Both the position numbers and the translations under genes were made by a program. From Novibacillus thermophilus (GTDB lineage: Bacteria; Bacillota; Bacilli; Thermoactinomycetales; Novibacillaceae), in contig NZ_CP019699.1 of the NCBI RefSeq assembly GCF_002005165.1, forward strand, positions 682,001 through 746,000: a stretch of DNA of 64,000 bases, in the 5' to 3' direction. This document shows positions 10,804 to 22,637 of the stretch, one piece after another; position 1 is the stretch's first letter, and every line of letters starts with the position of its first letter. Under the pieces are notes generated by a model, which did not search any database, was not told where the DNA came from, and saw nothing but the letters and a program-made list of their open reading frames with translations.

Positions 10804-12764
10804 ATGGACAAGCTCACCTTACAATCCAAGAATCGCACTCAGGAACATGTAGAAAAAATCGCCCAGCTGTTTCCGAACGTGGTCACGGAAGCTGTAGATG
10901 AACGCGGTCAACTCAAGCGAGCCATCGACTTTGAGCTTCTGAAACAAGAACTGTCGGACACAGTTGTCGGAGGGGAAAAAGAACGGTATCAATTGACATG
11001 GCCAGGAAAGAAAAAAGCGATTCTCCTTGCCAACACGCCGACGGACAAAACGTTAAGACCGGTGAAAGCGGACAGCGTGGACTGGGAACGCACACAAAAC
11101 GTGTACATCGAAGGCGACAACTTGGAAGCGTTGAAGTTGTTGCAAGAGGCGTACTTGAACAAGGTCAAATGCATCTACATCGATCCCCCGTACAACACGG
11201 GCAAAGACTTTATCTATAAAGACGATTTTAAAAATTCATCCGACGAGTACCTGGAACAGTCGGGACAGGTGGATGAAGCGGGGAACAGGCTGTTCCAGAA
11301 CAGTGAAGTGAGCGGCCGGTTTCACAGTGACTGGTTGAGCATGATGTACGCAAGGCTGAAGTTAGCAAGACTCCTGTTAAGGGAGGACGGAGTCATCTTT
11401 ATCAGCATTGACGACAATGAAGCGGCCAACTTGAAGAAAATGTGTGACGAGATTTTCGGCGAAAACCACTATGTGGAAACGTTCTACATCCAGGTGAGGT
11501 ATGCCAACAAATCTCTGACGGAAAAAGACGACTTTCAAAAACTCATCGAGCAAGTACTCGTCTACTCGAAGGGACAATTCAAGCCAAACAAACCTTACGA
11601 ACCGTATGCGTTAGACAAATTCAAATACAAGGTCGTGGAAAAAGGGGAAGGGACCAAAACGCAAATCGGCGGGAAGAACGTCACGATTTTTAAAAAAGGC
11701 GAATACGACATTGTGGAAACCGAGCCGGGGCTCGACGGACTGAAAGAGACGTGGGCGAGCGGGACAGTTTTGACGGGCAATGCGTCCGGGAAGTTTTTTG
11801 ACCAGTATTTGTCCCCAGAGCGGACATTGACGGACTGGGCACGCTGTACAAGGTGGAGGGGATTGGTGAAGACGGCCTAGGGTACCGGTATTTTACCGGT
11901 CCCAAACGGCCAGGCGCCACAAAAGGGAAATTTTACTCTGGCGTTCCCCTGGAGAGGCGCCAAGAGATCGAGGCGGGCAGAGCGAAAAAATACAAGCCGA
12001 TCATCAATTTTTACGACTACAGTGCAAGTTTTGGCAACATCCGCCATGAAGGCGGCATCGACTTCAGGGGCGGCAAAAAACCGGTCAAAATGTTGAAAGA
12101 ACTGATTAAGATGTCCACCGGCCGCGACGATATCGTCCTCGATTTTTTTGCCGGATCGTCTTCCACCGCCCATGCGGTCATGGAGGTGAACGCGGAGGAT
12201 CAGGGAAACAGGAAATTCATCATGGTCCAGCTTCCGGAGCCGGTTGACGAGAATTCCGACTACTACAGGGCTGGTTTCACGACCATTAGCGAAATGGGGA
12301 AAGAGCGCATTCGGCGGGCGGCCCGAAAGATAAGGGAAGAGACAGGCGCCGAGATCGACTACGGCTTTAGAGTGTTTAAAGTCGACACTTCGAATATGAA
12401 AGACGTCTCCGATTCCCCCGGGGCGTTCAGCCAGGAACAGTTGTCTCTTTTCGCATCCAACATTAAAGAGGACCGCACGAGTGAAGACTTGCTCGTGCAA
12501 GCGATTCTAGCGTGCGGCCTGGAACTGTCGCTTCCGATAGAAACGAGAGACGTGGACGGCCGAAAAGTTCACTTTGTCGCAGAGAACGCGCTCGTGGCCT
12601 GTTTTGACGAACCCGTGACGGACGCCGTCGTGAGAGCGGTGGCGACCGTCAAACCGTCAAGAGCCGTGTTTCGGGACAGCTCCTTCGCCGACGACGCCGA
12701 CCGCCTCAACGCCGAAGAGATGTTGAAACGGTTTTCGCCGGGAACCGAAGTGAACGTCATTTAG
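10804..12764 (+). pseudogene. mod: Type III modification methyltransferase mod1 (frameshifted)
   Basis: An N6-adenine methyltransferase subunit of a type III system. The first frame (10804-11880) holds MDKLTLQSKN..., the catalytic DPPYNTG and the start of a middle target-recognition region. The second frame (open from about 11817 to 12764) resumes with GLGTLYKV...GLGYRYFTGPKR and contains DFFAGSSSTAHAV, the SAM-binding motif; DPPY-before-FxG order is the beta class. Restoring one C in the run at 11813-11816 joins the frames as QYLSP-RADIDGLG and gives a protein of about 653 residues. Residues 1-220 and the last 190 closely match mod2 downstream; the middle does not. Either an inactive specificity gene or an uncorrected base-call error. 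Confidence 0.85.
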
Positions 12765-12771
12765 TTTCTTT

Positions 12772-22500: not shown

Positions 22501-22637
22501 CGAATGCGATGGAATGGCGGGAAGTGGAAAAGGCGAAAATTGCGTGCGCCCGGAAACACTTCGCGGCCTTAAACGTCAGCCAATTGACGTACGGTGTCGT
22601 AAACAGCTACGAGCAGTTGAGGGACATGGTGAAATAG
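19593..22637 (+). CDS. res: Type III restriction endonuclease subunit Res
   Basis: A protein of 1014 residues from TTG 19593, which sits 8 bases after AGGAGG; the GTG at 19584 overlaps that ribosome site. It has a superfamily 2 helicase core: Walker A [13 protein letters not shown] near residues 101-113, [11 protein letters not shown] (motif Ia), the DEAD-box equivalent [10 protein letters not shown] near 225, [21 protein letters not shown], and [13 protein letters not shown] (motif VI). Near the C terminus NPDWAIVLK ... VAETKGSS is the PD-(D/E)xK nuclease signature. It needs a Mod partner for target recognition and ATP for translocation before cutting. Directly follows mod2 in one operon. 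Confidence 0.96.
   Translation: [1014 protein letters not shown]

Follow-up and report, generated by a model that had tools for sequence, protein, structure and literature searches.

The mod1 gene of Novibacillus thermophilus is, as judged by sequence comparison, a mosaic in which the backbone of an EcoP15I-like Type III modification protein (Mod) carries a recognition module of another class. It lies upstream of mod2-res, an ordinary Type III restriction-modification (R-M) unit, in the 64,000-nucleotide stretch of DNA that we analyzed (positions 682,001 to 746,000 of contig NZ_CP019699.1, referred to here as the window). The history that we consider probable is that mod1 is an old in-lineage duplicate whose recognition region was replaced en bloc and which was lately frameshifted. 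The locus is of interest because it presents a pair of paralogues within one chromosome that differ mainly in their recognition module, and because that module occurs in two phyla, on several Mod backbones that have different Res partners.

An intact mod2-res unit and a second, frameshifted Mod gene

The finished, one-contig genome is 3,629,225 bp long, and the window contains a single Type III R-M unit, mod2-res (positions 17537 to 22637; Table 1). EcoP15I-like Type III systems methylate one strand of an asymmetric site and cleave the DNA approximately 25 to 27 bp away. The res gene starts 4 bp beyond the end of mod2 and combines an SF2 helicase domain (ResIII) with an endonuclease domain (RE_endonuc), as an EcoP15I-like Type III Res does. 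The mod2 product matches the PADLOC MTase_III model PDLC03634 (E value of 4.9e-234) and the Mod subunit of EcoP15I (PDB 4zcf_A; E value of 1.1e-78), and it has the beta-class arrangement of an EcoP15I-like Mod, with the DPPY of motif IV before the recognition region and motif I after it. The order IDPPYNTG (motif IV) followed by DFFxGSxxT (motif I) is found in both mod2 and mod1, but in mod1 only across two frames. The first mod1 frame starts with an ATG at 10804 and is open to 11880, and the second runs to a stop at 12764. PDLC03634 is also the best model for mod1, both pieces of which match MTase_III and Pfam N6_N4_Mtase.

Table 1. Coordinates of the mod1 and mod2-res genes, their parts, and the genes between them
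Feature	Position in window	Strand	Description
mod1	10804..12764	+	Second Type III Mod gene, EcoP15I-like backbone, frameshifted (ORFs and frames)
mod1 N part	10804..11463	+	Dimerization region and methyltransferase motifs IV to VIII by comparison with EcoP15I, IDPPYNTG; 75% identity with mod2
mod1 recognition region	11464..12101	+	Contains the frameshift; module class otherwise seen on other Mod backbones only
mod1 frameshift stretch	11801..11826	+	One base, from frames and alignment to homologues
mod1 C part	12102..12764	+	Motif I and C-terminal domain; 66% identity with mod2
SNF-family Na+-dependent transporter	12772..14109	-	Pfam SNF; between the mod genes, outside the R-M system
Membrane dipeptidase (M19)	14276..15223	+	Pfam Peptidase_M19; between the mod genes
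MATE-type efflux protein	15348..16664	-	Pfam MatE; between the mod genes
Protein without known family	16792..17457	+	No Pfam hit; membrane character by eye; between the mod genes
mod2	17537..19579	+	Intact Type III Mod, 680 aa
mod2 recognition region	18197..18916	+	52 to 61% identity with three same-backbone Mods
res	19584..22637	+	Type III restriction subunit, 1017 aa; Pfam RE_endonuc and ResIII, PADLOC REase_III

A first-pass annotation of the window had placed mod1 about 5 kb from mod2, had called it frameshifted, and had noted that only mod2 is next to res. All of this holds. The gap between mod1 and mod2 is 4,772 bp, the one-base shift falls near residue 340, inside the recognition region, and a search of the organism's own genome at an E value of 0.001 found neither a third Mod of this family nor a second res. 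None of the four genes between mod1 and mod2 is a known R-M gene, and two of the four are on the opposite strand, which places mod1 outside the mod2-res operon. The GC content at third codon positions (GC3) is 0.63 to 0.70 in mod1, 0.62 to 0.65 in mod2, and 0.57 to 0.68 in eight other whole genes.

The N parts of mod1 and mod2 are identical at 165 of 219 residues (75%) and the C parts at 140 of 213 (66%), while the recognition regions are only 25% identical, which is the level typical of unrelated middles. The earlier description of long shared ends around middles that look unrelated is thus correct, and the sharp DNA identity borders that it had proposed looking for are present: in 60-bp steps, DNA identity is 55 to 90% within the flanks, drops to 27 to 47% from approximately 11500 in mod1 (18240 in mod2) to approximately 12080 (18890), and then recovers. 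However, to confine the difference between the two genes to the recognition region, as that description did, goes too far, since the flanks themselves differ by 25 to 34% in protein sequence. Flank DNA identity, calculated from differences at codon positions, is 73% in the N part and 66% in the C part, and the longest exact run common to the two flanks is 24 bp. Of the residues identical in the two proteins, 71 of 159 in the N part have a matching codon (expected fraction, 0.41), as do 56 of 139 in the C part (expected fraction, 0.39), with expectations derived from six genes of the window. The synonymous sites of the flanks are saturated, and matches are hardly above expectation.

One 69-bp patch (11092 to 11160 in mod1 and 17825 to 17893 in mod2) stands out, in that 16 of 18 codons match (permutation P value of 0.004). 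This could reflect either a short gene conversion or a shared codon preference. We do not claim gene conversion here because a distant Mod gene of high GC content (L094) matches mod2 in 14 of 17 codons at the same patch.

Foreign recognition module of mod1

In order to place the two recognition regions, 100 Mods were aligned with the pair. These were taken from 114 Mod open reading frames (ORFs), 14 of which were left out as fragments, duplicates, fused, or oversized; shorter loci that duplicated a place already sampled were skipped. The Mod parts were delimited by alignment; regular expressions missed 26 of 116 Mods, including 7 of the 10 that carry the mod1 module. Mods with at least 55% identity to mod1 in the catalytic N region were counted as having the same backbone, which applies to 80 of the 100; the remaining 20 have other backbones. 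The scan of contigs for relatives of the backbone had found 249, of which the best 80 were kept.

The mod1 recognition region has a median identity of 22% and a maximum of 29% to those of the 80 same-backbone Mods. In contrast, nine of the 20 Mods with other backbones match it at 47 to 54%, and a tenth matches at 35%, which is the pattern of a recognition domain exchanged between nonorthologous Mods. In tblastn searches, these nine have E values of 5e-70 to 5e-53. The same nine carriers are 42 to 53% identical to mod1 in the catalytic N region and 22 to 32% identical in the C part. Three stretches of the mod1 module (YIQVRYANKSL, FTGPKR..AT.GK, and FGN.RHEG..F..GKK) recur, slightly varied, in most of the carriers.

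The ten carriers come from four genomes of the class and from six plasmids (of Staphylococcus, Paracoccus, Aeromonas, Erwinia, Leuconostoc, and Limosilactobacillus). Among 397 other genomes of the class, the module was found in four, in each case on another backbone; 17 plasmid records contain it, and the six that were compared all have it on other backbones as well. In a sample of 398 genomes of the phylum, it was found only in the genome studied here, and searches of phages, viral contigs, and the PDB detected no relatives of it. The Res proteins of the carriers have local matches or none to the Res of the window (6 of 10 compared directly and the rest by tblastn against the locus). The carriers fall into dissimilar groups: L123, L124, L129, and L130 are mutually alike over most of their length, as are L125, L126, and L127. 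Between these groups, the Res proteins (L123 and L124 versus L125 to L127) have only local matches.

The mod2 recognition region, on the other hand, follows its backbone, with identities of 61% to L033, 61% to L032, and 52% to L034, all of which are same-backbone Mods. Since the mod1 module is found on other backbones and is absent from mod2 and from the 80 relatives, mod1 rather than mod2 appears to be the mosaic, and the same comparison indicates that mod2 is not the donor of the mod1 module. Import into mod1 would be the parsimonious direction of transfer, a case built on the lack of the module in mod2 and the 80 relatives and not on a near-identical donor. The catalytic N regions (42 to 53%) and the modules (47 to 54%) of mod1 and the carriers are about equally similar, suggesting that the import was not recent or that the donor has not been sampled. 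Same-backbone carriers of the mod1 module may be present among the 169 relatives and 38 plasmid records (N parts, 60 to 80%) that lie outside the census. Within mod1, the ends of the exchanged segment are at the EIFG motif on one side and near motif I on the other. The motif I sequence of mod1, DFFAGSSST, resembles the DFFAGSGST of one carrier (L122), and the exchanged segment may therefore extend slightly into the C part on its right-hand side.

The mod2 recognition class may also have a wider distribution. Eco86II is described as an m4C enzyme with the motif GAGCC (PMC8259958). A Mod beside an SNF2-like gene in Escherichia coli NCTC86 (L150:10398-13520) was taken to be Eco86II, and the four best matches to its recognition region among 102 Mods belong to the class of mod2 (33 to 37%), which suggests that m4C and m6A enzymes alike may carry this class. 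The use of the mod2 module as a pointer to the Eco86II motif was considered and dropped; the mod2 region aligns to that of EcoP15I too, and therefore no motif is predicted for mod2.

Relationship of the two backbones and history of the locus

A flank tree was built from the joined N and C parts of 37 Mods (mod1, mod2, and 35 others) under a site-mixture model. In it mod1 and mod2 are sisters with support of 99/99, and they remain so with the N part alone (95/95) and the C part alone (83/97). The simplest reading of the sister relationship is an old duplication of the Mod backbone within the lineage, which we regard as likely. The alternative that mod1 and mod2-res were transferred horizontally and separately, as members of a widespread backbone family, would account for the fact that the N part of mod1 is 76% identical to that of L035, from another genus, versus 75% to mod2, and that the joined flanks of mod2 are 73% identical to those of L032 versus 71% to those of mod1. 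It would also fit the weaker support for the pair in the C-only tree, in which four foreign Mods are closer to mod2 by path than mod1 is. Nevertheless, the support values for the joined flanks and for the N part, obtained against 35 other Mods, argue against two independent arrivals, which we consider unlikely; a host composition common to both genes could help the pairing. The import of mod1 as a whole gene was also considered and is disfavored by the flank trees.

Among 43 of 101 genomes, none is of the same genus; the nearest (G001) belongs to a different genus within the family and has a different locus. Its nearer glycosidase homologue (74% identity) lies approximately 42 kb from its mod gene, and its best MATE homologue is 25% identical. 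M19 homologues from 17 genomes are 40 to 47% identical to the window's dipeptidase; no match to seven other window genes was found around them, in loci that extend only 1.5 kb on each side.

Based on the backbone relationship and the distribution of the module, the following history is probable. An ordinary EcoP15I-like unit, mod2-res, would have been accompanied by mod1 after a duplication of the Mod backbone long ago in the lineage. On one branch, the recognition region of mod1 would then have been replaced en bloc by a module from Mods with different backbones and Res partners. Over most of this history, mod1 probably served to mark a sequence other than that of mod2, either by itself or via the shared Res; through their shared ends, Mod1 and Mod2 may once have used the single Res together, perhaps as mixed dimers. 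A one-base frameshift would lately have broken mod1, likely leaving only the specificity of mod2.

The first-pass annotation had read the same arrangement as a specificity store: the two recognition domains would be swapped through the shared flanks, or mod1 would fuse with mod2, with loss of the four genes between them. In this reading, mod1 amounts to a silent cassette. One part of this idea stands: a recognition region was replaced between conserved flanks, as indicated by the mod1 module being seen elsewhere only on other backbones. A working store is another matter, and we consider it highly improbable. The layout would suit one, with both genes in the same orientation, shared flanks, and one res, and the 69-bp patch together with the 24-bp exact run could be traces of gene conversion. 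However, recombination-driven switches have long identical repeats, often with a recombinase, while here no exact run exceeds 24 bp, flank DNA is 66 to 73% identical, and synonymous matching is near background. In addition, the mod1 and mod2 modules belong to different classes, so that the mod1 module has no counterpart in mod2. No inverted repeats of at least 30 bp were found between positions 8000 and 26000, and no recombinase family was found by Pfam among five other nearby genes (four of which have families and one of which does not). A swapped or fused state was seen in no relative, the nearest genome compared being that of the other genus. Based on the length of the exact run and the saturation of synonymous sites, we rejected present-day recombination between mod1 and mod2 as a likely process, and exchange between the two genes at present appears unlikely.

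We compared the rates of change of mod1 and mod2 against a consensus of 14 outgroups. In the N part, mod1 has changed at 17 sites and mod2 at 23 (P value of 0.43), while in the C part, mod1 has changed at 35 sites and mod2 at 9 (P value of 1e-4). The faster change of the mod1 C part is unexpected under a simple duplication of the backbone. At 75 near-invariant flank columns, however, mod1 and mod2 each depart at only one, and the mod1 C part retains all 28 of its near-invariant columns. A long period of free decay is thus unlikely, and the low number of losses suggests either that the break is recent, as the preferred history has it, or that it is an error in the sequence.

A sequencing error as the source of the frameshift, with mod1 being a normal second Mod, would change only the present state of mod1 and is unlikely. 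It would explain a lone one-base shift in an otherwise constrained gene with an intact set of conserved C-part columns, but the genome is a finished single contig, and the faster change downstream of the shift fits some relaxation. It is very unlikely that mod1 still acts as an orphan or split methylase, working as two pieces or as a frameshifted product (for instance, as a partner subunit of Mod2), a possibility that overlaps with the preferred history. The conserved columns would fit such a protein, as would a stretch before mod1 that resembles a ribosome site by eye, and the division of labor described for the EcoP15I Mods, one of which reads and the other methylates (PMC4490356), makes mixed dimers conceivable. 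However, the frame break lies inside the recognition region and parts motif IV from motif I, and mod1 has no repeat tract suited to ready switching of the frame: a 2- to 6-base unit repeated four times is absent, and the gene has one T7 run (at 12143) and one 8-bp unit in two copies. The only runs in mod2 are A8, A7, and T8, and neither gene has the simple repeat tract of a phase-variable Mod. Since mod1 is broken by the one-base frameshift, the specificity of mod2 alone is likely to be the current product.

Comparison with known systems and with two-mod loci elsewhere

Like EcoP15I (PDB 4zcf), mod2-res has DPPY and motif I placed around the recognition domain, followed by a helicase/endonuclease Res. 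Unlike EcoP15I, the window has an upstream, broken second Mod with the same backbone and another recognition class, and a single Res for the two. Movement of recognition modules is an already known kind of event, to which this locus adds a case, since en bloc acquisition has been published and exchange through flanks has been proposed. The 2012 study of Furuta and Kobayashi, which was reportedly carried out in Helicobacter pylori, resembles the present case in that a recognition domain is found on nonorthologous Mods; the named carriers of the mod1 module belong to the Bacillota and Pseudomonadota. That study is credited with the movement of recognition domains between nonorthologous proteins in PMC7379913 and PMC4751487. 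For modA, unrelated Type III systems are described as the source of recognition domains taken up en bloc (PMC3311624), and for Neisseria mod genes, exchange via conserved flanks has been proposed, with several mod genes per genome being possible (PMC4751487). Thus, the modA, modB, and modD genes of Neisseria and Haemophilus share with the window conserved ends, an interchangeable middle, and several mods per genome, although their variants are described as alleles of each mod gene in different strains that have repeat tracts and ends of >90% identity (PMC3311624, PMC4751487). The window instead has two diverged paralogues of one backbone near one res, and mod1 is without repeat tracts. Type I loci with duplicated hsdS genes and inverted repeats, as described in PMC7394358, also have an extra specificity gene beside the active one; in the window, there are no such inverted repeats and no recombinase family among the five genes, and divergence of the shared parts is too great for them to be exchanged readily.

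Two complete Mods directly before res are found at 3 of 80 loci (the best 80 of 249 relatives), which is a lower bound since many loci end at contig ends. These loci are in a Bacilli metagenome-assembled genome (L056), Sediminicola (L063), and Sulfurimonas (L073). The backbone identities of the pairs are 80 and 82% (L056), 83 and 82% (L063), and 76 and 69% (L073), and the identities of their recognition regions are 26, 43, and 32%, respectively. For three of the six tandem Mods, the closest recognition region is 65 to 66% identical and comes from another phylum; the best match to each of the remaining three is 41 to 50%. Support for the pairs as sister backbones is weak or equivocal (82 for L073, 85/79 for L063, and a p-AU of 0.45 for L056), and local duplication is a candidate origin for each pair. 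According to PMC4490356, the recognition domain of one EcoP15I Mod reads the DNA and the other Mod methylates it, and Res is contacted by the C-terminal domain of one Mod. We can envision a general arrangement in which a Mod is duplicated beside its res and one copy takes up a foreign module. The dimerization and Res-contact parts common to both copies would then allow homodimers and heterodimers to work with one Res, with one Mod reading and the other methylating, so that two sequences are read; the window would represent this arrangement in an old, dispersed, and by now broken form. We consider this quite unlikely as a general account. If tandem two-mod loci do work, one restriction subunit would police two sequences, and such loci would provide a direct test of the proposed division of labor between a reading and a methylating Mod. 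No description of the two-mod, one-res layout appears in the titles or abstract openings of the literature matches listed, which is weak evidence of absence.

Several other loci contain altered Mod genes. At L072, a second Mod is present but is cut by the contig end. At L083 (8973 to 11999), a 1009-amino-acid ORF at a contig end joins a Mod that lacks its last part to one that lacks its first part, which is either a deletion fusion between tandem mods or an assembly artifact. An Enterococcus faecalis plasmid (L157:2436-11850) has an upstream mod whose ends are approximately 1.9 kb apart, followed by a second mod and res, and resembles the window in having an altered mod above an intact-looking mod-res unit. 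In Thermoactinomyces mirandus (L097 and L113), a same-backbone Mod is split into ORFs of 294 and 332 amino acids beside an intact-looking res.

Two further observations concern neighboring genes. In the nearest relative (L112), two tandem genes of the helix-turn-helix/TPR type (6005 to 7342 and 7777 to 9114) lie beside res; a domain scan was made of the first, and the two start almost identically over the first 40 residues, which were compared. In the window itself, a gene on the minus strand (24650 to 25711) encodes an ABC-ATPase domain fused to a LytTR DNA-binding domain; its Walker A region appears degenerate by eye, and it adjoins two genes that, also by eye, appear to encode ABC transporters.
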